From Thuidium tamariscinum (taxonomy: Eukaryota > Streptophyta > Bryopsida > Hypnales > Thuidiaceae): a stretch of DNA of 64,000 nucleotides. Under the pieces are notes generated by a model that was not told the DNA's origin, made no database searches, and was given only the letters and a program-made list of their open reading frames with translations. The stretch lies in contig OX344749.2 of the NCBI GenBank assembly GCA_947034885.2, forward strand, positions 33,661,182-33,725,181, given 5' to 3'. The stretch's first letter is position 1; each line of letters starts with the position of its first letter. Of the stretch, positions 11,195 through 47,014 are shown one piece after another. The translations under genes and the position numbers were made by a program.

Positions 11195-11965
11195 TAAATG
11201 TTTCACACCCCATTCTTTTCCACACCCCATTCTTTTCACATGGTTTTTTTATTTTACACATGAATTTTTTTCACAGCCCATTTTATTCCACACCCCATTA
11301 TTTTAACACTCTTTTTTATTTCACACCCCATTTGTTCTAATAACACTCTTCTTTACTGCACACCCCATTTTTCTTACACTTTTTTTTATTTCACACCCCA
11401 TTTTTTTTCCACATTCCATTTTTCTTACACTTTTTTTTTCTGCATGCCATTTTTATTAACAATCTCTTTTATTTCACACCCCATTTTTTTAATTTCACGC
11501 CCTTTTTTATGTCACACCCCATTCTTTTGTATTTCACACCCCATTTTTCTTACACTTTTTTTTTTCTGCACGCCATTTTTATTAACAATCTTTTTTATTT
11601 CACACCCCATTTTTTTTATTTCACGCCCTTTTTTATGTCGCACCCCATTCTTTTGTATGTTGTAAAACATTTTTCTTACACTTTTTTTAATTTCACACCC
11701 CATTTTTTTGCACACTCCATTTTTCTTACACTTTTTTTTTCTGCACGCCATTTTTATTAACAATATTTTTTATTTCACACCCCATTTTTTTTTATTTCAC
11801 GCTCTTTTTTATGTCACACCCCATTCTTTTTTATTTCACACCCCATTTTTCTTAGACTTTTTTTTATTTCACACCTCATTTTCTTAACACTCTTTTTTTT
11901 GCACACCCCATTTTTTTTACACCCCACTTCTTTTCACACCACATTTTATTCGACAACCCATTTTA
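11195..11965. repeat. Poly-pyrimidine tandem array (CACACCCCATTTTT phrase)
   Basis: Dozens of copies of a short phrase, CACACCCCA followed by a T-run, are organised into at least three higher-order units of about 145-170 bp. The units start near 11430, 11571 and 11742, each beginning CTGCAYGCCATTTTTATTAACAAT. Apparent proteins here are low-complexity Phe/His/Ser artefacts. Strong strand asymmetry (C+T on plus). Confidence 0.8.
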
Positions 11966-12640
11966 TTCAACCAACAAAGAAGCCAACGGACTCATACCAA
12001 ATCTAAATTGAATTTGAAAATGAACTGCACTATAGAGTACTCGAGTACTCGACCTTCAATTTTCATCCACTACGCATATTTTTTCATCCAAAATAGTCTG
12101 CACCCATTAATACATCTAGATGGTTGTTTACTTTGGCTACCATAATACACCCAATTGGTTGTAGAGACTTATACTCAATACACTAATGTAGTACTATACA
12201 TAGGATACTTTCAAATTTATAGCCCATAAATTACATATAATTTATCTTAATGGCCCAAATTTGTAATAACCCTATATTATTTATACTACATTTTTTTAAC
12301 ATGTCCTATTTTATTTGTAATTTCTTTATAAATTTTAGCTCAAATGAATAGAACCCTCTCTATATTATGCCGCATGTGGTTTTTAGAAAGAGGGAGTGGG
12401 TTTAAATATTGAAAATATTTTTGGTGGACACATGACTTTGCAATGTGTACGTATAGTAAAAGAATTTCAAGTGCAGATCATTAATTTAGGATACTCTACA
12501 AGACTGAAGAACCCTAAATTGCTAAGTGTGATGGAATACCAAATTTGAAATGAAATTAAAACAATTTCAACAATTTCTTAAATTGGCACTTTTCATTTTT
12601 TGCCTCAAGCTTTTTCTTTAGGATAAAATTAGGGTTTTGG
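11966..12640. other. No gene seen
   Basis: AT-rich unique sequence between two poly-pyrimidine arrays; no coding frame or repeat recognised. Confidence 0.5.
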
Positions 12641-13325
12641 GTCCTCTTCCCATACTATGGTTCCTCTTTGTAAGCATTTGTTTCCAATCTCTTCTATTTA
12701 TTTTTGGACTACATACCCTATTTTTTTTCCTTAGGCATTTTTGTCATGGTGATTTTTCCAATTCAATTGCACTTCCCATCTATTCTAATCTTTCTTACAC
12801 TTCCCATTTTTTTCATTTCCAAGGGTAATTTTGTTTTGCGAGTTTTTTCGACAAATCTAGTTCCCATTTTTTTTTCTTTGGTCATTTCTTTCACACTTCC
12901 CCTTTCTTTAGTTTCCAAGGGCATTTCATTTCACACCACATTTCTTTCACAAATTCACACCCCATTTTTTTTCCTTTGGTCATTTCTTTCTTACACTTCC
13001 CATTTTTTTGGTTTCCAAGGGCAATTCTTTTTTTTTTTTTTTTTTCAGAAATCCACTTCCCATTTTTTTTTCCTTTGGTCATTTCTTTCACACTTCCCAT
13101 TTTTTTTGTTTCGAAGGGCAATTCTTTTGTGCGAATTTTTTCCACAAATCCATTTTCCATTTTTTTTCCTTTGATCATTTCCTGCACACTTCACATTTTT
13201 TTTAATCTTTGTATCACTTCACATTTTTTTCCATTTGCCAGGGCAATTCTTCTTCATGAAATTTTTGAACCCACATCCACTTCCCATTTTTTTTTCCTTT
13301 GGACACTTCTTTTGCACATGGTCAT
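12640..13325. repeat. Poly-pyrimidine tandem array (CTTCCCATTTTTTTT / CCTTTGGTCATTTCT phrase)
   Basis: About five degenerate units of roughly 100-125 bp. Each holds CACTTCCCATTTTTTT, then TTTCCAAGGGCAATTC, then CCTTTGGTCATTTCTTTC. It resembles the array at 11.2 kb in composition but has a different unit. Phe-rich frames across it are spurious. Confidence 0.75.
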
Positions 13326-13332
13326 TTTCTAA

Positions 13333-13497
13333 TAGGGTTTAGGGTTTTAGGGTTTTAAGGTTTAGGATCAAAGTAGGTTTAGGGTGGTTTTACGGTTTAG
13401 GGTCAAAGTAGATTGAGGGTGGTTTTTTGGTTTAGGGTTGATTAAGGGTTGGTTTAGTGTGGGTTTTGTAATAGGGTTTAGGGCATACCCTAAACCC
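13333..13497. repeat. Degenerate interstitial telomere-like tract
   Basis: About a dozen TTTAGGG or near-match units (GGGTTTAGGG, GGTTTAGGGT, TTTAGGGTGG) in one orientation, ending in CCCTAAACCC at about 13488-13497. Degenerate, so an old internal array rather than a chromosome end. Confidence 0.6.
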
Positions 13498-18799: not shown

Positions 18800-19316
18800 C
18801 TGGAAGCCAGCATGTCAAAATCAAACGATGGCATCGTGGAGGTAGACTTTGGCGCCTTCTTGTCGTCATTGTCCACCAAAATGGGTAGAGGGCGCTTGAA
18901 TCCCCCTCGAGTCTCTGGCTACAGAACACCTGCACCCGTCTCTTTAAGGAAGTTGTGAAGATCACGCTCCACGTCGACATCCTTGTCATCCGAAGCGTGG
19001 AGCCGTTTGAGCCAGGTCCTCACTCTCGTTGTGTAATTGAGTTGCTGCACTTGATGAGTCTCAGCAGCAAATTCAGCCCAATCCACATCCTCTCGTCTAA
19101 CATGGTGGAAAACCCAACCAATTGCAAACTCCTTTGCAACATGGTTGGGGGCGAATTCCTTCTGGTAACATACACAATAGAGGTCCTCCACCAGCTGCTG
19201 ATCTTCGATAGAGAGCTTGTCCGCCAGACTATAGCCATTTCGACCTTTCTCTGCCCCAAACACGGCCTCCACTTCATGAATAGGGATGTTCTTACCAATT
19301 TTGAGCTTGTGGGGAT
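18800..19316 (-). pseudogene. SET gene: N-terminal exon, part left of the 16.5-kb insertion
   Basis: Reads HKLKIGKNIPIHEVEAVFG, then LSIEDQQLVEDLYCVCYQKE, then REDVDWAEFAAETHQ, ending GFKRPLPILVDNDDKKAPK with donor near 18800. TAG at 18919-18921 is in frame (CAG to TAG would explain it). The frame continues without shift across the transposon into 35792-35938 once one GTGGGGAT copy is removed. No known domain; I do not see a WIYLD domain here. Confidence 0.6.
19309..19316. repeat. Left target-site duplication of the 16.5-kb hAT element
   Basis: GTGGGGAT directly left of CAGGGTTG; identical to 35792-35799. Confidence 0.88.
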
Positions 19317-19340
19317 CAGGGTTGTCTATCCCGACGTGAC

Positions 19341-19880
19341 GTGGGCTTTTCCCGTCCAGATGTCATGACGCGTCAGTCGTGACGAGTCAGGACGCGTCAG
19401 AGGCCGTCCTGAATGCTGATGGCATCGTCGACAACGCGGATGAAGTCCGTCGACAGCGCGCAGACGGCTTGTTGGCCGCCTCGACGACTGGCCGTCGCGT
19501 GGACGGCCAGAGCGTCCGCGGCTTTAGGGTTTAGGCGCGACGGCCAGGTCGTCGCCTCAACAATTTTCTGTTCAGCGGACGATCACGGCGTCCAGAGTCC
19601 GTCCACGCTGCGGGGACGGCCAGGCCGTCATCTGGACGGCTAGAGCGTCCGCGGCTTGTGCACTTCGACGGGACGGCCAGGCCGTCGCCTCGACAGTTTT
19701 CCGTTCAGCGGACGGTCACGGCGTCCAGAGTCTGTCCACGCTGCGGGGACGGCCAGGCCGTCGTTTGGACAGCAGGACGTCCGCTGGACGGCCAGAGCGT
19801 CTACGGGGACGACCACGACGTCGCGTCCGCGGCTGTCCACAGTGCGCCAACGGACAGGCCGTCGACTGGACGACTACTGC
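19341..19880. repeat. GGACGG/CCGTCC array, left subterminal
   Basis: Extremely GC- and CpG-rich island in AT-rich surroundings, with motif GGACGG/CCGTCC or GACGG every 10-20 bp in both orientations. It contains a tandem unit of about 135 bp repeated twice (about 19495-19630 and 19632-19765), each including CGGCGTCCAGAGT and GGGGACGGCCAGGCCGTC. A third partial copy follows. Position suggests transposase-binding subterminal repeats and the promoter of the transposase gene (inference). Confidence 0.8.
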
Positions 19881-20029
19881 CAGGCCTTCACAGTATATAG
19901 TACGAGCCGTGTATTTGAAGGTCACTTTTCCTTGTTGATCTCTGCTCTTATGACCTGGTTGGCACACAGCCATTGCACTAGAGTGAAGTCCAAGAAGAGT
20001 GTGTGGGAGGAATACTTACTGTGAAAGCA

Positions 20030-20087
20030 GTAAGTGTTATTTCCACATCACATCCAAACAGAATACTAACCTGTTTTGTTTGTGCAG
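20030..20087 (+). other. Candidate 58-nt leader intron of the hAT transposase
   Basis: GTAAGT donor at 20030, perfect branch-type TACTAAC at 20064-20070, TTTGTGCAG acceptor ending 20087. It lies just upstream of the chosen ATG at 20114. Confidence 0.5.
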
Positions 20088-20113
20088 TTTCAAGTGAAGA
20101 ACCAGTGGGAGCA

Positions 20114-23014
20114 ATGGGAGGGGGGAGGACACAATGGGAACCCTGGTACAGGCTACAACAGGATGGGAAAGTGGAATGCAAGTTCTGCAAAACGAAGATT
20201 AGTTACCGCAAGGATCGCTTGCTTTTCCACTTGGGTTATAAACGAAATGACACCCTCCCCGGAGTGAGAATGTGCAACAAGGCCAGTGCAGCAGTGAAGG
20301 CTATGTTTTTCAATTGTGGGGGGAATGTTCCTACGGTCTCCGAAGACGAAGAAGAACATGATGTGGAAGTGACATCACCGTCATCGAATCCAACGAGGGT
20401 GGTACGTAATCAAGAACTACCCAATGCTTCAATCTCAATTAGTGGAGGGGGAGGAAATACTTTGGGCCAAAATTCTCAAGTTCGATCATCAGAGGTGCCT
20501 GTCCCTTCTTCGACCCATAGTCGACCGCTGAGGCAATTATCCGTACAAGAAGGGATGGACACATCCAAAAAGCAAGTACTAGACAAGAAGTGGGCGAAGT
20601 TTTTCTACGAAGCAAATATCCCATTCAATGTGGTGAGACACCCCGCTTTTGTGGATGCCGTGAAATCAACCTCCGAGTCCAGAGTTCTTTACAAACCTCC
20701 ACCTTACAATGCCATACGTATGAAGCTCATGACATCAACAAAGGAGGAAGTGGCTGCACTAGTAGCGGAGAAGACAAGGGGGCCTATCCACAAGTACGGT
20801 GTTACTATATGTTCTGACGGATGGGACAATGTCACCCATCGGCCATTGATCAATGTAATGTTGTCGTGCACGAGTGGAGAAGTATTTTTGGAATCGGTGG
20901 ACACTACAAGCGAAAGCAAAGACGCTGTTTATGTGGCTAATTACATGATCGAATACATTGACGTAGTGGGGGGACATAATGTGGTGCAAGTTTGCACGGA
21001 CAATGCGCCAAACATGCGTTTGGCTGGTACTCAAATTACTCGCGAATTCCCTCACCTATATTTCCAAGGTTGTTCCGCGCATGTACTTGACCTTCTACTT
21101 GAAGATTGGGGCAAGCAACTTTGGGTGGTCAAAATGGTGAAGAAAGTAAAATCAATCGTGAAATTCATTCGCACGCATCACATGCCACTCGCCATTTTCC
21201 GAAGACATTCTCCTAATCTCATGTTGAAGAATCCCATTGAGACACGTTTTGCGACCATGTTCCTCATGATCGAGCGTTTGGTCGAGGTCAAGGAAGCCGT
21301 GGAATCTACAGTCCATGATCCACAGTGGAACGAATATGTGAGGTCCTCGAACGCTGCAATACACAATAAGGCAAAAAAGGTTCGACGTAGGGTTCGAAAG
21401 GACGAGTTCTGGAGGAGGTGTCTCAACTTCGTGCACATGGTAGAGCCTGTGTTGGTGGCTCTTCAAGAGTTTGATGGAAAACATCCGGTCATGGGCAAAG
21501 CATGGATCGTGATGAAGAAGCTAGAAAAGCATGTTTTGGCTTTGAGGAATCGACCATTTTCATTGGAGGCAAATTATGCGGACCGTGCTGAATATGCGTT
21601 TTACGAACGATGGGATTTGATGAAGACCGATTTGCACTACGCAACTGCCCTGCTCAATCCATTCCTCCTTGATGAAATTGTACTAATAGACAATAACGAG
21701 GCAAAGGAGGCCATTCTTAGAGTACTACGCAAATTGGTAGTTGGAGGGTTGGGATATGCAGCCGCTTTGTTTGAGTACCAATCCTTTCGAGACCGTCGAG
21801 GCATGTTCGCTGGACTTCCCGATGTGAATACTTTGAATTTGGAGCCGCATGAATGGTGGGATCTTCTCGGAGCCAGTGCTCATACGCTTGCACCTATTGC
21901 AAGAAGGATCCTCGCACAAGTATGTTCCGCATCATCATGCGAACGCAATTGGAGCATGTATTCATTTGTCCACAGCAAGTCTCGCAACAGATTGACATCT
22001 GAGCGCGCGGAGGAATTGGTTTACATTTATACCAATTCGAGGACTCTTAGGGAAAGGGGTGCGGCGGATGCAGCACGATGGTACACTGAGAACATGTTGT
22101 CCGAAGATTCCATGACAACCGAATCAGATGGCTTGGATCGTGGTTCGGTTATGTCAGACGCTAACAACGATGACTCAGATGACAGTTCCAATGGCAATGA
22201 TGATCCACCATTTCGGCCTTTGGGTAAAAGGCAAGAAAGGGGTCCCCTAATTGACGAGTCCGTATTTGACTTTGATGGCGCGGATAATGATGGAAATGAC
22301 CACGGGGGAGATGAGGATGGAAATGACAACGGGGGAAATGATGGCAGTCCGTCATGGATGCCACGTACATCGATTGCGGGGTCAAGTGGTGGAAATCAAA
22401 ACGAAGGGGTTGAAGCCCCACCTTCGCCGGTTATAGGGCCGATTGAAGAAGAAATGCGTACTTGGAGACATGAACATGTCGTTGTGGTAGAAAGACAAGG
22501 CGAAGATGAGGTCGTTGCCACAGATCCCTCAATGGCGCGGAACACTCGTAGCCACAAATCCCCCATTGGTGTCGAGATAGACTTTCGCACATTGCGTCGA
22601 GACACGATCGGCGTGCGACCACAAGCGCCTAGCTTGGATGATCCACCCGTCCAAAATTCAGCACGGCCTTCATCTTCTAGAGCCCGCCCCAACCAAGAAA
22701 CTCCATCAATCGGTACACGATTGGCCGGTCTCTTCCCAACTCTAAATATGACCGAGCGAAGGAATGCACCTCCATCCTCAAAACAACCCGTTGCACCGCC
22801 TACACGCACTACTAATCAACGGCCGCGGCCACGTGAAGAAGGCCCTACCAACGAACGTGTGAGTAGAAGAACACGTAGAAGGCTAAGAAGGGAAGAAGCG
22901 GCGAGTATACCATTTCTCCGCGAAGGTCTTCTCCCTGGACCGGCGGGGCCTAGTGTGGATACCGCTGGAGATGGAGTGGGGGGCGAACAATCCGCAGATT
23001 GGCTTCTATTGTAG
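20114..23014 (+). CDS. hAT transposase (BED-like zinc finger, DUF659, hAT dimerisation domain)
   Basis: 966-residue frame, uninterrupted. Start chosen at ATG 20114 because a leader intron appears to end just upstream and the first conserved block (QWEPWYRLQQDGKVECKFC) follows at once. Residues about 1-60: BED-like finger with CKFC and FHLGY...RMC. Residues about 155-330: DUF659/RNase H-like fold with first Asp in SDGWD (235) and second in TDNAPN (296). C-terminal dimerisation domain around 575-650: WWDLLGA, then SSCERNWS with the catalytic Glu (610), then HSKSRNRL. A long acidic, Gly/Asn-rich and then basic tail follows. All three DDE residues are present, so it may be active. It would cut and paste this element; cargo genes are its neighbours within the same ends. 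Confidence 0.92.
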   Translation: MGGGRTQWEPWYRLQQDGKVECKFCKTKISYRKDRLLFHLGYKRNDTLPGVRMCNKASAAVKAMFFNCGGNVPTVSEDEEEHDVEVTSPSSNPTRVVRNQELPNASISISGGGGNTLGQNSQVRSSEVPVPSSTHSRPLRQLSVQEGMDTSKKQVLDKKWAKFFYEANIPFNVVRHPAFVDAVKSTSESRVLYKPPPYNAIRMKLMTSTKEEVAALVAEKTRGPIHKYGVTICSDGWDNVTHRPLINVMLSCTSGEVFLESVDTTSESKDAVYVANYMIEYIDVVGGHNVVQVCTDNAPNMRLAGTQITREFPHLYFQGCSAHVLDLLLEDWGKQLWVVKMVKKVKSIVKFIRTHHMPLAIFRRHSPNLMLKNPIETRFATMFLMIERLVEVKEAVESTVHDPQWNEYVRSSNAAIHNKAKKVRRRVRKDEFWRRCLNFVHMVEPVLVALQEFDGKHPVMGKAWIVMKKLEKHVLALRNRPFSLEANYADRAEYAFYERWDLMKTDLHYATALLNPFLLDEIVLIDNNEAKEAILRVLRKLVVGGLGYAAALFEYQSFRDRRGMFAGLPDVNTLNLEPHEWWDLLGASAHTLAPIARRILAQVCSASSCERNWSMYSFVHSKSRNRLTSERAEELVYIYTNSRTLRERGAADAARWYTENMLSEDSMTTESDGLDRGSVMSDANNDDSDDSSNGNDDPPFRPLGKRQERGPLIDESVFDFDGADNDGNDHGGDEDGNDNGGNDGSPSWMPRTSIAGSSGGNQNEGVEAPPSPVIGPIEEEMRTWRHEHVVVVERQGEDEVVATDPSMARNTRSHKSPIGVEIDFRTLRRDTIGVRPQAPSLDDPPVQNSARPSSSRARPNQETPSIGTRLAGLFPTLNMTERRNAPPSSKQPVAPPTRTTNQRPRPREEGPTNERVSRRTRRRLRREEAASIPFLREGLLPGPAGPSVDTAGDGVGGEQSADWLLL

Positions 23015-23247
23015 GTGAAGGCTCAGACAGCCCTGACAACTCACCAAGCGAAGTTGGTAGGGCAACGTCCAATCATGATGATGAATCCATGGGTCCTAGT
23101 ATAGGTGAAGATGGTGAAGTTCCGGGAGATAGTGATTATAGAGGGACTCGTAGAGGTCCTCCACCTGCACCTCAAGACAACCAAGCAACCATGCGAGAGG
23201 CTGCTGCAAGGAGCATGGCTCTTAATCGTACACGTGCAAGACGTTGA
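22978..23247 (+). CDS. Trailing frame after the hAT transposase (-1 relative)
   Basis: Overlaps the end of the transposase in the -1 frame and runs about 82-90 codons to TGA at 23245-23247. Composition (Asp/Gly/Ser-rich then Arg-rich, ending RARR) continues the style of the transposase tail. It could be the original C-terminus after a frameshift, an alternative splice product, or chance. Confidence 0.3.
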   Translation, partial: GGRTIRRLASIVGEGSDSPDNSPSEVGRATSNHDDESMGPSIGEDGEVPGDSDYRGTRRGPPPAPQDNQATMREAAARSMALNRTRARR

Positions 23248-23628
23248 AAGCATCTAGGGAAAAAAATGTCTCCATGTCATCTTATGTAATACTGTGTAAG
23301 GCTGAATACCTTGCATGTGAAATTCGGCATTAATTATAAATACTACCCATGCTTCCTGTGCTCATGTAAGGCGCATGGGTAGAAATTTTTTATCTTCACA
23401 TGTCACAAATTCTACAACGCAACAACGGATCCATTTATGGATATTTGTCCCAAGAAATGGAAATATTTGCTTTGTCGTTTGCCATGTGTTCTATACTCTT
23501 AAATTTGGATTCATTCTTCGAAGCTGGTTACCTATATGCTTGGATATTTTGAGATCATTATGGATTTTGCCCTGTACAAGAAAACAAATGTAATCTGGAA
23601 TATGGAGAAAATGATTGAAAGTACTGAA

Positions 23629-24558
23629 TTAACCCCTAAAGGACCAAGAGTCCCCTCGGGGAACTTTAAGAATTAGGGCAGGTACTTGTGACTTCAATTT
23701 TTAATGAATTTTATTGAAATTTTCACATAAGATAAAAAAACTGATTAGCTCCGTGGAAATATTAATTTCTTTTCAATTGGTGACCGGGAGCAAAAGTTAT
23801 GCCATCGTAAACATAATTTTCATGTTGCCGGGCAGAAAAAAAAATCTACAAAAACTTCAAAATTAAAAAAATAATTTTTTTTTCTTATAGATTTTATTTT
23901 TGTCTACAAGTAAAGCTTTGATTCATTCCATTTGGATTAGTAATGTGAAAGTTATGAACAATCTTGTTTTTCGGGCAATCTAAGCATCTTCTTGAAAAAA
24001 TAACTTATAGGATTCATTTGTGAATGCAATTTTCACAATTTTTCAAAAAAAATTGTTGGACAAGGTTGATTTTGTTTTCTAGAACAATCTCACCATTGGG
24101 ATTATTGTGTTTCAATTCCATCTATGAGATATTTGCAATTTAGTTTTTCTTTCAATCTTGGACCTACATCTACTTGACAATTTTTTAAAGAATGAAAAAA
24201 AGTCTTTATTTTGTGAATTTTTTTTCCTAAGCTCTTAGCTCAATTTCTCAATAGAAAAAAATTTAAATTCAAGGTCTGTAGTGCAAAAAAATTACATAAA
24301 TGGAGGACAAAGTCATTTGAAGTTGCAAACTAGAGTTTAAGAAAACTTTGTTTTCCAACTTTGAATGCTCATATCTTCCTATCTATACGGTCAAACTTCA
24401 TGAAATTTTCACCACATGATCTTAGTTAAGTAAAGTACAAGATCCTATGGTTAGATTCTAAAAATTTAGTTTTTTTGTTTTTCATGGATGAATGGAACAA
24501 AAATGGCAGTTTTGAGTGGTTTTGGGTTGAAAAACGGCCGTGGTCCTTTAGGGGTTAA
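23629..24558. mobile_element. piggyBac-like TTAA-flanked non-autonomous element, 930 bp, nested in the hAT element
   Basis: TTAA at 23629-23632 and 24555-24558. Perfect 14-bp inverted ends CCCCTAAAGGACCA and TGGTCCTTTAGGGG lie just inside. No transposase frame. TTAA target duplication with CCC-starting ends is the signature of the piggyBac superfamily. Diverged relatives occur at 48299-49113 and about 49240-50740. Confidence 0.75.
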
Positions 24559-24770
24559 CATGGCATTAAGTCCAAAATTTGTGAAGGGACAGAACTACTC
24601 ACAAATCCACTCACCGGAATCATACTCGAATGGAACAAAAAGATTTACATATATTTATTTCAAAAAGGAGTTAGTACAAAATTCAGTGAGGCAAAGTTTG
24701 TGGACTATACTGTGGTAAAAGCAAGTACTAAGGTACGTCTACGATTACATTGCCACTAAAATACTATTCT
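24559..24770. other. Short spacer between nested element and kinase gene
   Basis: No feature recognised. Confidence 0.4.
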
Positions 24771-26432
24771 CTAATCTTCATTCCTTGCTTGTTCTTGTAG
24801 AAGTGCTTGCTCCTTGCGGACCTCGTGGTAGCAATCCACGAGTGGAGTCCAAAATAAGGGGGCGCCACTAATTCGTCCCACGGCGTACGTAACCGTGCGT
24901 CGTTGTAGTGGGTCCTCTTTGCACAATTCGCCCAATGTGGCTTGAAATGTACCAAACACTGTATGGTCGGGAAGCATTTCCGTATTTTCGCGGTCTTTCT
25001 TCCATATCTTCTCCGCAAGCTTCCCAACAACAAATCCGTCTGTATGTATACTGACACACGGTGCCCCATCTACGCGAGTGGGGGATACCGGAGTGCCCGC
25101 CTCTCCAGTCACATACATCAATTCAGGGGCCACCCACCAACGTTTCTGACGTGTAGCCCGCATTTGGCTTCCACATTGAAACTGGTACAAAGAATGGGTT
25201 TCTTCATTGATACGACTAGCCATTCCCCAATCACATAGCCCAATCCACACTGTTCACCCATCATCATTCGGAAAATGCAACATGACGTTTTCTGGCGTGA
25301 TGTCGTTGTGGAGCACCGAAGATTGTTGCACCGCATCCACGATGCAAATTAACGCCCATGCAATCTTGGTGCGGTTTCTATGATAAGCCAAGAGTCTTTT
25401 GGCTTCTTGCATCGTCTGTGGAGTTGCATGGTAGGCAAGTTCCCCAATCTCAGCATAATCTCGGTTTTTGTGGTCCAAGGCGAACATGGCTTCCAATGTT
25501 CCTCCATTCCACCATTGAGAATAACACTCCATGGTCATGTCATTTATAGCAAAAAATTTTATGACCCCTGGATGATTACATGGACAAACCAAAGCCTCGA
25601 TGGACAACTTCTCCCGCGACTTCTTCAATTGATCCACATATAGGGCTGTCTTGCCCGCCAATTCCATCGTGGGGGGAATGTGCCTTGAATTTTGGAGGCT
25701 CACTTTACGCACCCTCCCGTGCCCCCCTTGTTTGTTGTGGCTTGACAATGGAACCACCACCACTCCTTGTTCGAGAAATACCACTCCTCCTGCACCCGCT
25801 TGGCCTAGGGACAAGCTTTGGCTCTGCTGAAACCATGGGGCAGAGCGGATATTGCTGGAAGATAGCGCTCGCATTGCGTCATGCTACCAATACACCTTTT
25901 TGTGCAACAAATGCAATGCTTGTTGCTTCGGCGCTACATCTCGTTTGAAGCCCTTTATCGATGCGGCGACTTGGGCGATGTTGAAAACACAAGTTTGCAC
26001 TTGTTCGTCAAGCCAACGACGGAAGTGTTCCTTTGTGCGATCTTCAAGCCACTCATCCTCGCCCATTGTTGTCCAAAACATGTGGGTGAATTTGTTTTTT
26101 ATTGTCTCCACCCCTTGCAATCCACACGAGACGTAGGTCGTATTCAATTGAGCAATCGTATATTGCTCCAGAAAATCCAATGCCACTTCCTGCACTTTCC
26201 TGGTCGCAGCCTTCCTTGGCCAGTCGTCTGTATTCGCAGCCTTGTGCCTCCGCCTGTTCTTTTTTTTCTTGGCCCCCGAAGATTCTCCTCCAGCCACACC
26301 ACCGACCCCTTCTCCGGCCAATATTGCCTCCGATACGCAGTCAATGGATTCTGGAGACTGTTCACCAACAGGATCTCCGATGCCTGAAAACCACGCATCA
26401 ACCTTGCGCTTCGACGCACCTCGCCCGTCCAT
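24771..26432 (-). pseudogene. Protein-kinase-like cargo gene of the hAT element, two in-frame stops
   Basis: One continuous frame of 554 codons with stops only at TAG 25884-25886 (codon 183) and TGA 25254-25256 (codon 393). N-terminal 180 residues: Lys/Arg-rich stretch, then a region of unknown type (VQEVALDFLEQYTIAQLN). Kinase-like domain: GGHGRV glycine loop (about 236-241), AGK Lys (261), HPGVIKFF, WWNGGTLEAMF, VLHNDITPENVML catalytic loop (Asp 377, Asn present), CDWG in place of DFG (401-403), VAPE (435-437), DGFVVGKLAEKIW. All core catalytic positions are present, with HND for HRD and DWG for DFG. The nearest upstream DNA holds an intron-like GTGAGT...TTTCAG ending one base before the ATG, then a CCGTC array. 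It lies between the transposase and the second array, so it moves with the element. Confidence 0.75.
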
Positions 26433-26433
26433 T

Positions 26434-26485
26434 CTGAAAAAAAATATGCGATGGTAAAACCAAGGAATTAGGGTTCAGTACTCAC
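26434..26485 (-). other. Candidate 52-nt leader intron of the kinase-like gene
   Basis: GTGAGT donor at 26485 and poly-T CAG acceptor ending 26434, one base before the ATG (26432). Unusually short; a more distal donor is possible. Confidence 0.4.
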
Positions 26486-26640
26486 AAATGTGAAAACTAT
26501 CCCCCCTTCCTCAGCCGAGCCTCCTCGCAAGCACCCGCGCTCCCAAGCAAGGACTGCAACCAATCTAGGGCAAGAGAGCACCGTCAGAGCAGGAGAGACT
26601 TGTGCAGAGTGGGGGAACTGGCCCACCTTATATAGCTGTT

Positions 26641-26950
26641 GGTGAGCCGTCGCATGGACGGCCGATCCGTCCAGGGAACTCGAAAGCCGTCGAGGGGTGT
26701 CGGGAACTCCGAGACCGTCGAGGGGACGCGCTGGCCGTCCTCAGAATTCGGAAGCCGTCAAGGGGAATGTCGAGGACGATGAGGCCGTCGATGGGACGCC
26801 CCATCCGTCCCGAGAATTTCAAAGCCGTCGTGGGGACCGTCGAGGAACTGCGAGACCGTCGAGGGGACGCACAAGCTGAATGGGGAATTCGGGGGTCCGT
26901 CGTGGAACGAGGCCGTCCACGGGACCCCACTGGGCGTCCCGGGAATTCTG
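26641..26950. repeat. CCGTC/GACGG array upstream of the kinase-like gene
   Basis: Repeated CCGTCGAGGGGACG, GCCGTC and CCGTCC blocks at 10-25 bp spacing. It starts about 155 bp upstream of the leader intron of the kinase gene. Same motif as the terminal arrays. Confidence 0.72.
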
Positions 26951-29900
26951 AACCATTAAGGGGAAGCACAGGGTGGTGAAGATGCCAGTGAAGCCATTAA
27001 CGAACTTAATGGCAAGCCTCGTGCGACTAAAATTCTTCTACAAGGTAATAAGGTAACAGGCCCAAAAACCGCCCATCTAAGGGCTGACACTGAATTTTGA
27101 GAAGGTGAAAACCCAACCTAAAGGCCTTGCCCAACCGAGGGTTTAGGGTTTAGGATTTAGGGTTTAAGTTCCTTTTTACTTTTGCGTAAATGAGGGTAAA
27201 ATGTCTAGTTTAGTAATTTAATAACTTAAGAAGTGCATTATAATTTGTATTCGGTAATTGATCTTTCTTTTCCTAGCGTCAATCTAATTTTGCAAATTTT
27301 GAAGTAAATAAAAGAAATAACATGAAATGATTAAACTTATTGGTTCTAGTCTAAACACATACCTCTTCGGTTGATGCGTATCCGTTCTCAGTTGTGTCGT
27401 CAAAAAGCTCTACTTCCTCCCTTTCCATCTAATTTCATTCTCCCCCGCAAATTTAGGAAATAGGAGCTAATTTTAATAATTTAATCCGGCTTAATTAGCA
27501 TTTGCTATTTGATGGTCACACTATAACTCCTTGAGGAACTTAAATCATTTCCGTACAATGACTTTGCCAAAATCTAATTCAAGCGTACATACATCTATTT
27601 TACAAAATGGGGTCATATAAAATGCCTAATTGAATTCTTCAACCCAATTATATTGTTGTAACTTACTAGGAATCTAGGATGTTTTTTGGTATGAAAGATG
27701 TGCATATGGATGTTTCCTACATATCTCCTCTTTGCAAATTAATGCTAATTCATCACCAATGTTTTATAATCAATTATCATGCTAAACCATGAATTTTGAA
27801 TGAAACAATTCACCAAAAACTGAATTTGACTTATGTGAAATCCACATTTGGTATGCTTGATTATATTATGCAAAATTCGTTTCAATGGCAGAATTGGATG
27901 ATCCTAAACTTGTTGGTGGGTAGTGTGTAATTTACACGGCTAAAATTTTACATTGCCTTCCAGTGCTTCAGCTCATATCGAGAATGGCTGAAGTGATGGA
28001 CCTTAAATTTTAGAAGTTGCCCTATGGATATGTAGGGATTTAAACTTCTCAATTTTAAATTCGGGAGCCATCCGACTAGGCATATATTTTTTAGGAAATT
28101 AGATTAGTACTACATGTACATATTAGTATATTACTATATTGCATAATATTCTGGTCATATAGTCATGTACTCTACTTATGAGTTATGAAAGTATAAGTGA
28201 ACTAAAGCACTAATTAGGAGTTTAGGACGGGGGCATTGGCAAGCAAGACTCCGTTAGTGGGCACCAACCAATTTTCAGAATTCAGACTCTTCTGCGGAAC
28301 CCTAAACCGCTCTAATCCTCTCTTTGCCGAAGTGTATGATAAACCCTAGAAGAAAGAGTTAGAATTCCGCAAGTGTGTTAATGGTTTGAACCAAAAAAAC
28401 ACGTCAAAGGGTTAAAAAAGTTACCCCAAAAAAATATAGAAATGGTTTAGAAAGAAATTGTCGAGCCCGGTTCGAATAAAAAAATGTGGAAATGGGTTGG
28501 AAAAAAATGTGTTAATGGTTCGATTAAAAAAAATATGGAAATGGTTTGAATCCCAAAAATGGAAGTGGTGTGAATAAAGCAAAACGTTAATGGTTTCGGG
28601 TGTTGGGCAAAAATATATAGAAGGGATTTGGACCAAAAAATGGGTTAATGGTTCGACTAAAAAAATATGGAAATGGTTCGGTTTGGAAAAAAATGTGGAA
28701 ATGGTTTGAATAAAAAAAATGGGAATGGTTTGAATAACAGACTCGGGGGGTTCACACCCCTTATCTTTTGGTAACCACGTGCGATAATGGGGTATTTAAT
28801 GGGGGGGTATTTATGTCCTTCTCATGTTTTTTTCCCTCCCTATTAGTAGAAATAAAGCTACCGGAGTGTATTTTAGAGTACCCTATTTTCTTTTGTAAAT
28901 TCTTTGAAGGACTATTTTTGAACACCCTATTTTTTTTCTACATTTCATAATTACAAAATACTGAGAAGATCAAAAACATTGTATACAAGGAAACATGTCA
29001 GCTTCAAGGATTTTGATGAACTAAGAACATGGTGAAACGCACAGCATATGCTATCTATGTGCCACTAAAGAGTTTGAAAATCAAAAATCAAAGCTACAAC
29101 TATTTATATTTCACCATTTATAAGAAAACAAAGCACACAATAGAAAAATTAAACTATAGTATACAATCCTAATGCAATATTTAAAACCAATTTAAAGGCA
29201 CAAGAGCATATTCACATTCATTTATATAATAAGAAAACTTAGGGAATTTAATAAGCCGATTGTGTTTAAAAACACAAGTATCAATAAGTTTGCAAATCCA
29301 TTCTAACATCTAAAATGAAGAAGTTCAAGGACCTCTTGCTCTCAAATCAACTATTATGGTAGGAAGCTCACACGGAGGTTCATAAACTATGCAGGCTTTT
29401 TAATCTGCCTAATAGGAGGGTCTGAATTGGATAGCTCATTGTGAGAAAACTAATTGTGGATTATATTGAAGCATGCTAAGATTTGATTTTTACTATATGA
29501 ATGGATGGTTTTAGAGTTACAATGGATTCAATCCTAACTAAGTGTACTTATAGGTGTCTACCAATCCACATTCAAAATAAAAAATGGTTGGTAAACTACC
29601 TTCTTTCAAATGTTAAATTGTTTTGAAATAATGATTAATTGAAGAATTCATTTCAGTTTTTGAAAGGGACACATTTAGAAACCATTTCTAGTGTTTTTTA
29701 CATGTTGCATTACTAGTTTTTGAACCAAACCAGATTTTTTTAGAAACTGTGCATGTATAGGTTTTCAAGGCTTACTGATCACAAATAGGGTCCTATGACA
29801 AATTGTGTTTGAAATTTCATAATTAATTCAATTTTGCTTCAAAAAAATATGAAACAACTTGTATTAGATTCCTCATCTATTTCTCCTTGACTGAAAAATA

Positions 29901-30317
29901 AACTAAAAATATTTTCATCTAAAGACATACACGAAAAAGGCAAATCAACTCTTAATTTAAATAAGTGGAATCTTAGCCTCCTACCATGCATACATGGCTA
30001 ACACACTTGTCACAATCATGAATCCCAAAAAAATTTAAAAAGAAATACAAGATCTGAATGAGTCACACACTTGTCACAATCATGAATGAATCCCAAAATT
30101 TTTTAAAAAGAAATGCAAGCTGTGAATGTTAACTCATTGAGCTCCAATAAAAATTACAATATACAGGTACTGCATTGGCAATCTTCACCAGTTCACCCTC
30201 ATTAAAATTCAGCTGTCTTACAGCTTATTGCATCTCAACTGCCTAACTGAATACCAATTGCGTAATTGGATTCCACCTGCCTAATTGAAATTGAGGGTAT
30301 ATATTGTAGCCACCTAT
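26951..30317. other. AT-rich spacer inside the hAT element, no gene seen
   Basis: No supportable coding frame. Contains a GGGTTTAGGG run at about 27138-27170 and the poly-A/GGAAATGGTTTGAA array at 28390-28745. Confidence 0.5.
28390..28745. repeat. GGAAATGGTTTGAA / poly-A array (inverse of the 33.9-kb array)
   Basis: Phrases such as GGAAATGGTTTGAA, TGTTAATGGTTCGA and poly-A runs, repeated about every 25-35 bp. It is the reverse complement of the phrase making up 33890-35180, so the two arrays flank the coiled-coil/RING gene in inverted orientation. Confidence 0.7.
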
Positions 30318-30860
30318 TGGGCCCGTCCAGGACTTGGGCAGGCCGTCACGGGGACGGAGGGCGTCCAGAAAACCGTCCAGGAAGACGGGCCCGTCCAGGA
30401 CCTGGGCAGGCTGTCACGGGGACGGAGGGCGTCCAGAAAACCGTCCAGGAAGACGGGCCCGTCGAGGACCTGGGCAGGCCATCACGGGGACGGAGGGCGT
30501 CCAGAAAACCGTCCAGCAATACGGGCCCGTCCGCGGACCTGGGCAGGCCGTCCGCAACGAATTTAGGCCGTCCAGGACCTCGGGCCGGAGCGTCGACCTG
30601 TCCGGGCAGGCTGTCCACAGCGGAACAGTGGCCGTCCAAGACCACGGGCAGGCCGTCACGATGAGCCATTTTGGGCCGTCGAATTTGTAATTCGGCGGAG
30701 TAATAATTGGCTTCTATTGTCATGAGTGCTTTTCGAACTCGTTGACGGCGCCGGACCTGTGGACGGCCTCTGTGACGTCATCCCGAAGCTGTCGACGGCC
30801 TCCCGAACCAGAGTCGATGCTCCCTGGACATACCAACCGTCGATGGCCGTCCGCATCAAC
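30318..30860. repeat. CCGTCC array with 67-68-bp tandem units, upstream of the coiled-coil/RING gene
   Basis: Three near-identical 67-68-bp units start at about 30320, 30388 and 30456 (GCCCGTCCAGGACYTGGGCA... AGAAAACCGTCCAG). A fourth partial copy at about 30523 and irregular GACGG/CCGTC motifs run to 30860. CpG-rich. It ends about 280 bp before the ATG of the following gene. Confidence 0.8.
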
Positions 30861-31140
30861 GGCTCCAGGTGGTGCATGGCGATGTGATTAGACACAAATT
30901 AGCACTCCTAACGAGCCTTGGTAATGGGGAGTATAAATCTCAAATTAAGCCACATTCACCTTGCTTTCTCTCTTGAGTTGCTCTGTCCCAGCTTGAAAAA
31001 AGCTTTGCATTGCAATTCGGGAGGAAGTCAAGCATTTGGCTATTGCTTTGCCACATTCCAGTTGCCCTCACGCAACAGGAGGCAGAGCATAGTCATCTGT
31101 ATATACATACATCCGTGTTGTGGCATTGTGTGCAGGTACT

Positions 31141-33318
31141 ATGGCAGAAATTGAAGAGATGGTAATACATGTAGAGAACCCCCCTATGGCAGAGAACAAG
31201 GAGGTGGTAATTGCTGCAAATCACCCCCCAGTGGTAGAAAACCAGGAGATGGTGACCCATGAAGGTGAACCCCCACACAGGAGGCGTCATGGGAACAAGA
31301 GCACTGTAGACTGGGCGACTTTCAACACTGGTGAAGTTTTGGCCGCGCCCGGGTGGGAACAAGTGCTTGAGCCATGGACCCGCACCACATGTCGGACATA
31401 CGTGGACTAGGCCCACATCAACCGCCATTTTCCACGGGAGAGAAATGAGACGCAAGTGCGATCTGGCGTTGCATTGATAAAGTACTGCATACACCCGGCG
31501 TTCAAGAAGCGGTTGACCGAGGTGGCATTGGCACTTTGGGGGACCCTCTCGAAGAAGGATGGGACCCTCGCATTGTGTCAAATGGCGTATGCGGAGGTTT
31601 TTTTGGGCAAGGACGTGGATTGGAATACGTATACGGCAAAACAACGGGGTGGCCGTTTCCCTACTAAAAGCCGTAGAATTCCACCAAATCCTGCAGTGCA
31701 ATTGGAGGGCAAAGGAGTGGCTTGGGCACAAGGGGACGAAGCAGCGGACGCGGACCCCATGGAGGTCGATAATGCACTTCAAGGCGCCAACGAACAAAAC
31801 CCGGTGGCTCCCGAATTGGAGGCGCCCATTGCCGGTCCAAGCGAGCCCATGCCACTCGCCATTCACCCAATTCCCCCGTCCACGACAATTAATGAAGTAT
31901 TTGGAGCGAATGGGGAATTAGAGGCATTACGTGCATTGGTGACTCAGCTGCGTGAGGATGGTGCAGAAGCTGGGCGAAGGCATGAGATGGAGGTACAAGC
32001 CCACAACGCACGGGTGAAGGCTCTGGAGGAAACGAATGCTAAGTTACTAGCAAGTAACATTGACTTGCTTGAACGTGTACGTCGCCAAAGCACAGATGGC
32101 ACTCCACTATTGGATGAGGTCGTGGAGCGGGCCACATATGGTCTAATTGAGCCAGCTGACCCATTGACGGTGCGCCGGGTGTGGCCTCGTGGTATATTCC
32201 CAACACCACATTTTCGTGGTGAAAGTTCAAATGCGGCAAACCAATCAACAGATGCGTTGGGCCAAGAGTTCATTAGCGTTGAGCGCGTGGCGTACGATGC
32301 CATTGTGGCACGAGCGGAGCGTGCAGAGGGCGAGTGCAATGAGGCCAAGGCCAGCATGGAGGCTGTATCAGCGTCCATGCGTGAACTACAGGACGAGTTG
32401 GCATTTGTAAATGCCATGAAGGATAGATTGTTGCTCCAAACGTCAACTACGAGGGAGCAAAAGTTGCTTGCCATGAGCAACATGAGATTGGCATGCACTT
32501 TGGCTATGAATGAGGTCGCGCAACTGCAGCGTGAGGTCAAGAGAGTAGCTGCAGAATTTAGAGATGGTAGCCAACGTTATTTTGGCTTGACATCGTGGGC
32601 CTGACTGGAGGATATGTTTCCAGTTACATTGCCCACAAATCGCGATAATGCAAGCATTGATTGGGACGGGCATCCGCATCTAGACTTCCAATTCAACACC
32701 GCGAGATACCGATACGGGCCCGTGGATAGAGAAGGCAATACCCCCTTATTGTGGCCCACTGTTCCCGTGTTTGTGAAGAATGGAACGACGTGCATGATTT
32801 GCATGGAACCGTTTGGGCCCGAGGGTGGATGGAGCCTTGGAACGTGTGGACATATGTACCACCCCGGATGTCTCATTCTGCACATGGTCACAAGAAAGCG
32901 GTGCGCGCAATGCAAGGCTCCTTTGCACCGGCGGTTGTACGTCCAATTTGGGTTGGAGCATCACATGCCCCCGCACTTCGAGTTAAACGAAGAGAACTTG
33001 CCTGGCGATGAGAATAGAGGGAGTTGGGGTAATGACATGATATGGATGTGGAAGTGGGGCCATGACAGTAGACACCTCACTGTGCGCAGCGTACAAGACG
33101 TTCCGTGGATCGATGATGCGAAGATTACGGAGGTGTGCAAGAAGCTAATTGGTGCAGGCAATCCAGGGCGGCGAGTATTTTTTGGCCAACTTACTGGTGG
33201 CCATTGGGACTTGGACCGAGAGGAGTTCGTGCGCCGACCACATCCAGAGAATGTGGTTTTTGACTCCAGCGGAAACCCTATCAGAATACTCCAAGACCTG
33301 GATCATGAGGCACAATGA
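31141..33318 (+). pseudogene. Coiled-coil plus RING-H2 cargo gene of the hAT element, two in-frame stops
   Basis: A single frame of 725 codons from ATG 31141, directly after a splice-like acceptor (GTGTGCAG ending 31135). It is interrupted only by TAG 31408-31410 (codon 90) and TGA 32602-32604 (codon 488). N-terminal region carries YAEVFLGKDVDWNTY (about residues 145-165). Residues about 255-480 are coiled-coil-rich (LEALRALVTQLRED, ERAEGECNEAKASMEAV). RING-H2 at about 551-592: CMICMEPF, CGHMYHPGC, C-A-Q-C, a C3H2C3 pattern. C-terminal Trp-rich region unknown. RING-H2 proteins usually act as ubiquitin ligases; activity here is inference. TGA at 32602 could instead end one protein and ATG 32614 start another, but the unbroken frame argues for one gene. 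Confidence 0.7.
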
Positions 33319-33500
33319 GGTTCGTCGAAGACACTACGTTCAATGAGGTGCAAATGTTGTCATCCATTTCTTCCTACTTGCACGATCGATATGATCGGAC
33401 CGTAGTGGCTACGTTGAACAGTTTGCAATCTAGAGAAGGATTGCAAAATTTTTTGAGAAATAGTATAGCCAGAGGCATTGTAGAACCAGAACAAGGTTGA
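33315..33500 (+). CDS. Trailing small frame overlapping the RING gene (-1 relative)
   Basis: ATGA overlap with the RING frame, 61 codons, ends in TGA 33498-33500. Helical composition (VQMLSSISSYLHDRYDR). It may be the shifted original C-terminus or a separate small protein; not recognised. Confidence 0.3.
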   Translation: MRFVEDTTFNEVQMLSSISSYLHDRYDRTVVATLNSLQSREGLQNFLRNSIARGIVEPEQG

Positions 33501-33889
33501 ATACCTTCTGGTGATGAGTTAGGCCATTAGACGGATGTATAGTATATTAGTATTGTAAATAGTATTTGGCTGTGACGACCATTTACGAGCGTTTATTGCT
33601 CATGTTGCAAAAGTACATTTTTTGGGCAATGAAGCATTTTCATTTTTCTCGTACAACTGTATTGTTTGTTAAACACTTAAACAGAAAACTTAACCATGAA
33701 CAAATGAAAAGAATACTCAATACGTTTGCTTGAAATGTATGTGCAACAAGTTCATTTAAATCCAATGCCATACTTTCACTTAAAGTATATTTTCTAAGTT
33801 TACTTTTAAAAAATGCCAAAATTCTATTTTTTACATATGCTGATATGCCACAAGTATATATGCTTTTGTTTTTTATTCCCACCATTTCG
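33501..33889. other. No gene seen
   Basis: AT-rich 3' flank of the RING gene. Confidence 0.4.
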
Positions 33890-35180
33890 AATTTTTTTAA
33901 TCAAACCATTAACCCAATTTTTTCCCACCGCATTTTTCCACATTTTTTTTTCCACATGTCAAACCATAACCATTTTTTTTACCCTAACCCATTTCCATTT
34001 TTTAGATTCAACCCCTTTCCATATTTTAGATTGAACCCATTTCCATATTTTTATTAGTCAAACCATGAACACATTTTTTTAAACCATTTCTATATTTTTT
34101 TGTTGTCCACATTTCAAACCATCAACGTTCTTTTTTATTCAAACCATTCCCATTTTATTGATTCAAACTATTTCCAATTTGAGCTTTAACCATTAAGGCA
34201 TTAACATTTTTTTTCCAAACCATTTCTAAATGTTTTTTATTCAACATTTCAAACCATGAAAGTTTTTTTTTTTCAAACCATTTCCATATTATTTTTAATC
34301 AAACCCTGAACACATTTTCTTTCCAACTTATTTCCATATTTTTTTTAGTCGAACCATTAACACATTTTTTTTCACGACCCTTTCTATATATTTTTTTCCA
34401 ACCTTTCAAACCATTGCCTTTTTTTTTATTCAAACCATTCCCAATTTTTTTTATTCAACCCATTTCCATTTTTTTTTTTATTCGAAGCATTTTCATATTT
34501 TTTTTAGTCGAAACATGAACACATTTTTTTTCCAAACCATTTCTATATTTTTTTGTATTCAACATTTCAAATTATTAACTTTTTTTTTATTCAAAGCATT
34601 TCCTTTTTCTTTTTCTTTGATTCAAACCATTTCCATATTTTTTTTAGTCGAACCATTAACCCATCTTTTTTCCAAACCATTTCTATATTTTTATTTCCAA
34701 CACCCTAAACCATTACCATTTTTCTTTACTCAAAACTTGGCCATTTTTTTTACCCTAAACCATTTCCATATTTATTCTAGTCAAACAATTAACACATTTT
34801 TTTTCCAAACCATTTCTAAATTTGTTTTTCCAACACTTCAACCCATTTCCATATTTTTTTTAGTCAAACCCTAATCACATTTTTTTCCCAACCCATTTCC
34901 AAATTTTTTTGGTCGAGCCATTAACACATTTTTTTCCAAACCCTTTCTATATTTTTTTTCATTCAACATTTCAAACCATTAACGTGTTTTTTTTTATTCA
35001 AACCATTTCCATTTGTTTGATTCAAACCATTTCCATAATTTTTTTATTCGAACAATTAACACATTTTTTTTCAAAACCAGTTTTACATTTTTTTTTATTC
35101 ACAATTCCAAACCATTAACGTTATTTTCATTCAAACCATTTCCATTTTTTTGATTCAAACCATTAACACCCTTTTTTTAA
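33890..35180. repeat. CAAACCATT / poly-T tandem array, 1.3 kb
   Basis: About 25 copies of [AG]AACCATT followed by TCC, AAC or TCT and a T-run, alternating in a recurring order of about 130-150 bp (..TTTCCATATTTTTTTTAG, TCGAACCATTAACACA, TTTCCAAACCATTTCTA..). Strongly strand-asymmetric and free of real coding frames. Inverse of 28390-28745. Confidence 0.8.
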
Positions 35181-35339
35181 ATACAGAATATATATTATAT
35201 TTAGACTATGGAACTAATGGAAGGCCTAAAATACAAAACTTTCGAAATTATTTTTTTAGAGATGGTTAAACCTCATAGACTAGTGAGAAAATTTTGATTG
35301 CGAATATGAACTCAGACTTTTAAGTCTTACAAATAAAGA

Positions 35340-35783
35340 GTTTCAGTCCACGGAGCCCAGGCCGTCCAACCTTCCTTTCAATCCAAGCCGTCCTTCCCAA
35401 GCGTAGACCGTACCCAAACCGTCGATCTGGAGGCGTCCGTCCGGGCCGTCCACTGGACAGCCTGTCCATCGGGGCCGTCCATACCCCGTGGATCGTCTGA
35501 GCGGGGCCGTCCCCTAAAACCGTCCACCGGATCCGGACCGTCCGCAGAACCCAGAGTGTCCATCCAAGCCGCCCAGTCAGCCAGGACCGTCCATCGGAAC
35601 TGTCCACCGAGCACGTCCTTCCAAGCCGTCCACGGAGGTCGTCCGTGAGGGCGTCCATGACCGCTGTCACGATTTTTCATCCTCTGTCGCGGATTCTGTT
35701 GTGAATTTCATCCTGACGGACGCTCGGCTCCCCGTCACGTCAGCGGACGGACATCCTGACGGACGGACGTGATGCGACGGAAG
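35340..35783. repeat. CCGTCC/GGACGG array, right subterminal
   Basis: CCGTCC or CCGTC about every 12-20 bp, mostly on the plus strand, turning to GACGGACG in the last 70 bp before the right terminal repeat. Mirrors the left array, as expected of subterminal transposase-binding repeats. Confidence 0.78.
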
Positions 35784-35791
35784 CAACCCTG

Positions 35792-35799
35792 GTGGGGAT
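35792..35799. repeat. Right target-site duplication of the 16.5-kb hAT element
   Basis: GTGGGGAT directly right of CAACCCTG; identical to 19309-19316. Confidence 0.88.
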
Positions 35800-46334: not shown

Positions 46335-46473
46335 TCAGAAAAATCACAAAAACCCTAAATTCAGTGGACATCCATTACCAATCACCACTTCACGAAACAC
46401 CAATCCACCATTCGATCCACACCTAATCGACGCGAAATCAAGAGAGAAAAACCATACAAGCGACAACACCTAC

Positions 46474-46913
46474 CGGGTGGTCCCGCTGTCCACGTTGTGC
46501 GACACCACGATGGCGTAGTCGCCGGAAGCCCTAGCGAACGCACCCCGATCACCCATGCGGTGCTCCACGTTGCACACCACGGCGCCCTCGGGCACGGAAC
46601 GCAGCGGAAGCACGTTCCCGATCGACAAAGTCGCCTTCTTCCCGCAGTACACGAATTGACCAGAATACATGCCCTCGGCGGCGATGAAGCGCTCCTTCTG
46701 CCTCTTGAAGCGGAAAGGGTGGCGGAACGTCACCTTGCACAGCGGAGCTCCGCGACCGGAGTCGTGGACCACCTCCGAGACCACCCCCTTGATGTACCCA
46801 TTGCGCTCGGCGTAGTCCAGCGAACGGAACTGCGCAGGACCCTTGCGACGGTGGGTGTGACTCCTGAAGATGGAGCCAGCTCCCTTGCGCTGGGCACGAA
46901 TCACACGACCCAT
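46474..46913 (-). CDS. RPL8: 60S ribosomal protein L8 (uL2), exon 1
   Basis: ATG at 46911-46913 gives [20 protein letters not shown], the canonical eukaryotic uL2 start. In-frame codons upstream are not conserved and belong to the leader. Exon 1 ends [10 protein letters not shown] at CG|GTAGGT and joins exon 2 across a 147-nt intron (46327-46473) in phase 2. The protein is a core component of the large cytosolic ribosomal subunit near the peptidyl transferase centre. The frame is intact, and this is the only clearly intact host gene in the window. GC content is well above the surroundings. Confidence 0.97.
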
Positions 46914-46982
46914 CGCAACCAAATCGGAACCGCGGACTCCGACCAGAGAGTGAGAGCGGGAAAGGAAGAGTTCGGGCGTCCG

Positions 46983-47014
46983 CCCAACCCTAATCCTCTG
47001 CAGCAAACCCTAAT
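46983..47014. promoter_or_regulatory. Telo-box motifs in the RPL8 leader/promoter
   Basis: Two AACCCTAAT copies (about 46985 and 47006) lie within 100 bp upstream of the RPL8 ATG. AAACCCTAA telo-boxes are a known element of plant ribosomal-protein promoters. Confidence 0.55.

Follow-up and report, generated by a model that had tools for sequence, protein, structure and literature searches.

The sequence analyzed here (designated the window) is a 64,000-nucleotide stretch of contig OX344749.2 of Thuidium tamariscinum (assembly GCA_947034885.2, positions 33,661,182 to 33,725,181), and coordinates below are window positions. It contains a hAT element of 16,475 bp (19317..35791, + strand), which carries a transposase gene, a protein-kinase gene and a RING-H2/coiled-coil gene and is collinear with two other genomic copies that were read whole (C9a and C6b). 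hAT elements are usually far shorter than this copy.

Boundaries and genes of the element

The boundaries could be read directly from the sequence. The left terminal inverted repeat is CAGGGTTG (19317..19324, + strand; also seen in other copies), the right one is CAACCCTG (35784..35791, - strand), and both lie inside identical 8-bp target-site duplications, GTGGGGAT (19309..19316 and 35792..35799), in agreement with a previous sequence-only reading of this DNA. The element thus shows the features of hAT membership: an 8-bp duplication, short CAGGG-type inverted ends, and DUF659 together with a dimerisation domain. When the flanks were joined without the element, a single GTGGGGAT remained and a 178-codon open frame spanned the junction. 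That reading had also proposed that excision restores an open exon; the open frame was indeed found, but its status as an exon is unproven because it had no Pfam family match, and interruption of a host exon by the insertion is therefore no more than plausible.

The transposase gene (20114..23247, + strand) was identified by Pfam, with both DUF659 (E 5e-36) and Dimer_Tnp_hAT (E 2e-10) above the cut-offs. It had been described as intact; however, a 1-bp shift near 22975-22984 throws approximately 85-90 residues of its C-terminal tail out of frame. The kinase gene (24771..26432, - strand) has two premature stops (25884-25886 and 25254-25256), and the pieces of this broken copy match only weakly, below the Pfam kinase cut-off, whereas its relative P0067 scores above the protein-kinase cut-off. 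Conserved catalytic motifs (Lys, Glu, HND..N, DWG-like and APE) were recognized by eye in the kinase sequences. A Foldseek search with the kinase model returned only kinase structures among the 50 matches listed, none of them at E≤0.001. The RING-H2/coiled-coil gene (31141..33491, + strand) is interrupted by stops at 31408-31410 and 32602-32604 and by a 1-bp shift near 33312, yet zf-RING_2 was above the Pfam cut-off, and the columns of the eight RING-H2 metal ligands were invariant in a four-row alignment. Long helices were predicted in a low-confidence model of a RING relative. Thus, the kinase-like and coiled-coil/RING-H2 genes claimed previously are both present beside the transposase.

Introns were considered as a cause of the in-frame stops and were rejected: relatives run straight through the same places, so that the stops and shifts represent decay, and the window copy is a decayed member of its family. 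In C9a all three frames are open, with 1061 codons in the transposase, 567 in the kinase and 836 in the RING gene, and the C6b transposase has one stop. Both copies align with the window copy in collinear blocks of 90-96% identity, and with each other in blocks of 97.6-98.7% identity. The C9a frames that reach 150 codons or more were the three genes, their antisense frames and frames in GC-rich clusters, and no further large gene-like frame was seen in it. This bears on the idea that the element arose by fusion of a hAT with portions of a large DNA virus, as in Teratorn, which is said to be a piggyBac-like composite with a herpesvirus part. Kinases and RING proteins are common in large DNA viruses too, but the C9a frames speak against a fusion, and IMG/VR contained no relatives when it was scanned for the transposase, kinase and RING protein. 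We regard a viral fusion as very improbable.

Copies across the genome and transposition as a unit

The genome searched comprised 363,211,507 bp in 19 contigs, eleven of them large. With the left 300 bp of the element as query, 40 full-length matches were scored among 363 candidates (93-100% identity, window included), all of them starting from base 1; 64 further partial matches fell on a tandem repeat. With the right 300 bp, 40 matches were scored among 312 candidates (97-100%, window included). The three genes were similarly abundant: the best 45 of 750 transposase candidates were scored (38 without a stop), together with the best 79 of 639 kinase candidates (52 without a stop) and the best 57 of 1,340 RING candidates (44 without a stop).

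These sequences occur in a fixed arrangement. Past 37 of the 45 scored transposases, an opposite-strand kinase was located at a distance of 1,525-1,529 bp; a RING gene followed 38 of the 79 scored kinases, and a kinase lay upstream of 38 of the 57 scored RING genes. On the downstream side of the 40 left ends we found a scored transposase in 14 cases, a kinase in 20 and a RING gene in 15, and 32 of the 40 right ends had a scored gene within 25 kb upstream. Partner genes are expected to be missing in some cases because each list holds the best-scoring candidates only. Wrong-orientation controls gave no pairs at all (left end and kinase, 0/40; transposase and kinase, 0/45; transposase and RING, 0/45; right end and kinase, 0/40). 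Left and right ends could be joined into 14 pairs, including that of the window, with lengths of 16,475-17,322 bp; loci with both ends and the same cargo, whose absence would have spoken against the sequence-only reading, are therefore present. At 30 kinase loci (L010-L039), element sequence extended over the entire 4,659 bp (coverage 1.0 as rounded). A transposase was present at 8/8 left-end loci (the window's own included), and at all seven others the extent of homology was that expected for a start at the element end. Because the matches to both ends recur, all left ones from base 1, and homology has the expected extent at these seven loci, the observation is far beyond chance. The P0012 transposase query found 42 places in the genome, many of which coincided, by eye, with the copies described above.

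The junctions on both sides were examined for 15 other copies, nine in one set and six in another. Matching 8-bp flanks, with a different sequence in each copy, were found in 13 of them (7/9 and 6/6). The whole unit is thus inserted with 8-bp duplications, which is what the sequence-only reading had proposed in describing a giant hAT that moves non-transposase genes as a unit. The genome search with both ends that it suggested revealed dozens of copies in which the ends and the three genes keep the same spacing and orientation. We also considered whether a segmental duplication or an assembly artefact around an ordinary small hAT could account for the window copy, which is far longer both than typical hATs and than the longest plant consensus, 7,144 bp, in one survey (PMC6027215). 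The different duplications at 13 of the 15 other copies and the sharp homology boundaries make the chance of this negligible.

The 30 kinase copies are mutually 98.8-100% identical, and the window copy is 96.9-97.3% identical to them. Relative to the majority sequence, C-to-T and G-to-A account for 103 of the 154 changes in the 30 copies and for 23 of the 44 in the window copy; this excess would fit deamination of methylated DNA. The pN/pS ratio was 0.39 among the 25 stop-free copies of the 30, and between the window copy and C9a it was 0.42, 0.55 and 0.44 for the transposase, kinase and RING gene, respectively.

Metagenomic relatives were also found. Seven of 13 kinase matches had 55-85% identity across 86-100% of the query, and three RING matches had 48-51% identity across 79-94%. 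Such long relatives would support retained function of the two proteins more strongly than the pN/pS values do. The longest contig listed for the transposase relative P0004 and for the kinase relative P0067 has the same length, 6,480 bp, which suggests that the two may be linked. Transposase relatives included P0046 from Ceratodon, a moss, and P0047, named as from a Bacilli bin; a hAT transposase in a bacterial bin is probably plant contamination.

Additional hAT families and a second organism

The family of the window copy (family 1) is not the only one in this genome with such genes. With the distant kinase P0073 as query, a second high-copy kinase type was detected (best 84 of 658 candidates, 61-63% identical to the query); one copy of it was approximately 30-34% identical to family 1 relatives. 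P0029-like transposases (best 49 of 726 candidates) were sorted by match pattern into two types with 36 and 13 members. Among the 36, a second-type kinase was located within 30 kb of 26, upstream on the same strand in 24 of these, and 16 of the 26 distances fell between 15,747 and 15,975 bp. For 12 transposases of the 13-member type, a second-type kinase lay on the opposite strand, 10,231-11,725 bp upstream. With random placement, a mean of 0.8 of the 49 transposases (maximum 5 in 200 trials) had a second-type kinase within 30 kb. Cross-pairs were similarly rare: a family 1 kinase was near 2/36 and 0/13 of these transposases, and 1/45 of the family 1 transposases was near a second-type kinase.

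A protein sharing the N-terminal part of the RING protein (34% identity, E 1e-18; best 86 of 1,055 candidates, split into 49 and 37) showed the same association. It was found within 40 kb of 33/36 and 10/13 transposases, as compared with 1/36 and 0/13 in cross-family pairs, and linkage to the kinase within 15 kb was seen for 29/49 and 22/37. All three genes occur near 24/36 and 9/13 transposases of these two further types.

Two family 2 copies were approximately 99% identical over the approximately 24 kb compared, and 90% identical in the last 0.8 kb. Their homology stops at ...AAAACCCTG and ...AAAACCCTA, a hAT-like right end, whose GC-rich repeat is different from that of family 1. Provided that the transposase and this right end are parts of one element, which the spacing indicates, copy A of family 2 probably extends over at least 34.8 kb between them. 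At the family 2 loci L062-L066 and L079-L082, the kinase and two RING-N-terminal relatives have a hAT transposase nearby, and the family 2 copy on C1 adjoins a GACGGC-rich stretch resembling the family 1 clusters.

A scan of species genomes with a single transposase query gave nothing, whereas an alignment query gave a 6.3-kb contig (L001, CADCWO010000266.1) that is filed under a cyanobacterial genome bin and is presumably contaminating plant DNA. It contains the end of a hAT transposase, which is 44% identical to the metagenomic relative P0001 and 63% to P0046 from Ceratodon. Next to this comes a frame of 875 codons with homology to the RING proteins (24-25% over approximately 725 residues, E approximately 1e-46; 31% to P0080 over 290 residues). 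As the transposase and RING homologue are located side by side in this contig, we conclude that their pairing is old. Linkage thus shows that a wider group of large hAT elements has the kinase and RING-type genes, with at least three families represented in this genome and a distant pair of transposase and RING homologue elsewhere.

These data are relevant to the origin of the two genes. One scenario is transduplication, in which an ordinary hAT took in two host genes and then amplified both. There is a precedent in fungal hATs with histone H3 (PMC6710886), and in type the kinase domain and the RING domain resemble those of hosts. But the kinase is linked to three transposase families, RING relatives are too, the RING linkage recurs in a second organism, and all 30 kinase loci that were read sit in elements; furthermore, no host parent of the kinase stood out among the best 79 of 639 candidates. 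We consider transduplication improbable. The sequence-only reading had the element mobilize host-type signaling genes, which the data do not support; as the kinase is tied to three hAT families and sits within elements at 30 loci, and a RING homologue adjoins a distant hAT transposase in L001, the two look like conserved element genes and not exchangeable cargo, wherever they came from in the first place.

GC-rich clusters and nested repeats

Four GC-rich clusters, with bounds drawn by eye, are present in the element. The left one (19317..19960) consists of GACGGCC/CCGTCC motifs and a tandem repeat with a 133-bp unit; the others are located just 5' of the kinase gene (26640..26980), 5' of the RING gene (30310..30880) and at the right end (35380..35791). 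Together they span 1,968 bp and contain 40 of the 46 CCGTCC motifs of the window element (both strands), compared with a mean of 2.3 and a maximum of 9 for shuffled clusters. The corresponding numbers were 49/54 in C9a and 51/56 in C6b. The distance from the left end to the transposase varied among other copies, mostly in steps of 113 bp.

Several other repeats are nested in the element. A piggyBac-like MITE (23629..24558), with TTAA and 14-bp inverted ends CCCCTAAAGGACCA that are also seen in C9a and C6b, lies between the transposase and kinase genes, and AT-rich minisatellites occur at 28393..28737 and, in inverted orientation relative to it, inside the right end at 33861..35168.

This architecture raises the possibility that the unit is built of two or three elements, nested in or fused to each other and now moving together, with the inner clusters as old ends. 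The end motif is carried by the inner clusters, a MITE is nested inside the element, and inverted AT-rich arrays flank the RING gene on both sides. On inspection by eye, however, no correctly oriented CAGGG-type ends were found at the inner clusters, which instead sit just 5' of each gene; the layout is also repeated across copies, and the gene set in other families. A composite origin is therefore unlikely, if less so than transduplication.

Possible roles of the kinase and RING proteins

Taken together, it is very probable that the window element belongs to a giant, young, high-copy family of approximately 17-kb hAT elements with three genes, in which the kinase and RING proteins are conserved accessory proteins; we infer that these two proteins act for the element rather than for the host. 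Their favored roles would be control of transposition or relief from silencing, and the likeliest route would be regulation of the transposase or of the silencing machinery through phosphorylation and ubiquitin marking. A DNA-binding factor may recognize the GCCGTCC clusters at both ends and before each gene; that ends and promoters share these clusters suggests one binding factor for both mobility and expression. It is possible, although we hold this only tentatively and think it somewhat more doubtful than not, that the elements form an undescribed lineage of giant multi-gene hATs (17 to probably more than 34 kb) that rewires host ubiquitin and phosphorylation pathways to escape silencing, with the kinase and RING/coiled-coil module kept down to approximately 44-49% transposase identity and found in over 160 scored kinase genes within a single genome, and with a single sequence-specific factor driving the ends and all promoters.

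Several observations weigh against the view that the kinase and RING proteins are conserved parts of a transposing unit. The copy counts are those of best-scoring candidates; they are lower bounds, biased to open copies, and they do not include the three genes of the window copy. Two of the 15 copies (C3c and C6a) have 8-bp flanks that differ, perhaps as a result of recombination, and one copy with matching flanks ends in CAACCCTA, with its last base changed. Between C9a and C6b, pN/pS was 0.66, 0.85 and 0.24 for the transposase, kinase and RING gene, with few changes. Constraint within the young family 1 burst is thus visible, not strong, and selection is weakly shown, because the ratios are moderately below 1, changes are few and the C6b transposase has a stop. 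The structure models were poor (mean pLDDT 42 for the RING protein and 56 for the kinase), and the argument therefore rests on sequence. With regard to the additional families, linkage of the RING relatives was compared with the cross-family control only; two family 2 RING relatives that were tested had no Pfam match, RING included; families 2 and 3 are known without a complete end pair; and no kinase was seen on the 6.3 kb of L001.

Comparison with known systems

The elements resemble the hAT superfamily (Ac/Ds type, DUF659) in their 8-bp duplications, short CAGGG-type inverted ends, and DUF659 and Dimer_Tnp_hAT domains. They differ from it in size (approximately 17 kb in family 1, whereas family 2 probably reaches at least 34.8 kb) and in their recurrent extra genes. 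Starships of fungi are also giant cargo transposons, but they use a different enzyme class, with a tyrosine recombinase captain, and their cargo is variable, whereas the window element has a hAT transposase, hAT-type ends and 8-bp duplications. VANDAL elements are Mutator-like. Their VANC protein is the nearest analogue in logic: it is an accessory protein of a plant transposon, and its target motifs are often tandem repeats that vary between related elements, but it is a sequence-specific anti-silencing factor and neither a kinase nor a RING protein (PMC5735166).

The idea that a hAT can carry cargo is itself not new, because fungal cargo hATs have already been published. ToxhAT, a 14-kb fungal hAT-like cargo element, is likewise a large unit with several non-transposase genes. 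In the Dothideomycete histone H3 hATs, 8-bp duplications and a non-transposase gene amplified to many copies are again seen; these elements are 9.5-9.9 kb long, their gene was captured from the host, and the copies were inactivated by RIP (PMC6710886). In plants, the longest hAT consensus in one survey is Gulliver (7,144 bp), and the same survey reports no hAT homologue in the moss Physcomitrella (PMC6027215); the size of the present element widens the plant range given there. In the open-licence literature searched, we found neither a plant hAT that carries kinase or RING genes nor a gene set of this type that recurs in several giant hAT families.

The usual view of hAT elements is that of transposons with a single gene, which now and then capture cargo. 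In the plant genome studied here, several families have kept a kinase and a RING/coiled-coil relative in differing gene orders, which suggests that selection has favored a hAT system of several proteins. The question of what benefit a cut-and-paste transposon would draw from its own kinase and a probable ubiquitin ligase thus becomes testable, and the open recent copies allow experiments on expression and function.

Other features of the window

AT-rich minisatellites also occur outside the element (11201-11969 and 12789-13203), and the units inside and outside look related (CACCCCATTTTT and CAAACCATTTCC). A diverged inverted relative of the piggyBac-like MITE is located at 48398-48881. Telomere-like repeats containing TTTAGGG are present in the interior of the sequence at 13351-13466 and 27138-27166. 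Two long inverted repeats, with arms approximately 7.6-7.8 kb apart, were detected at 52329-52809/60418-60898 (82% complementary) and 49355-49539/57307-57491 (93%). An open frame at 991-1896 contains DUF4218, a domain typical of CACTA-type transposon proteins, and another large frame is found at 4214-5104. Finally, the - strand at 46470-47009 carries a plant-like gene fragment of the ribosomal protein L2 family.

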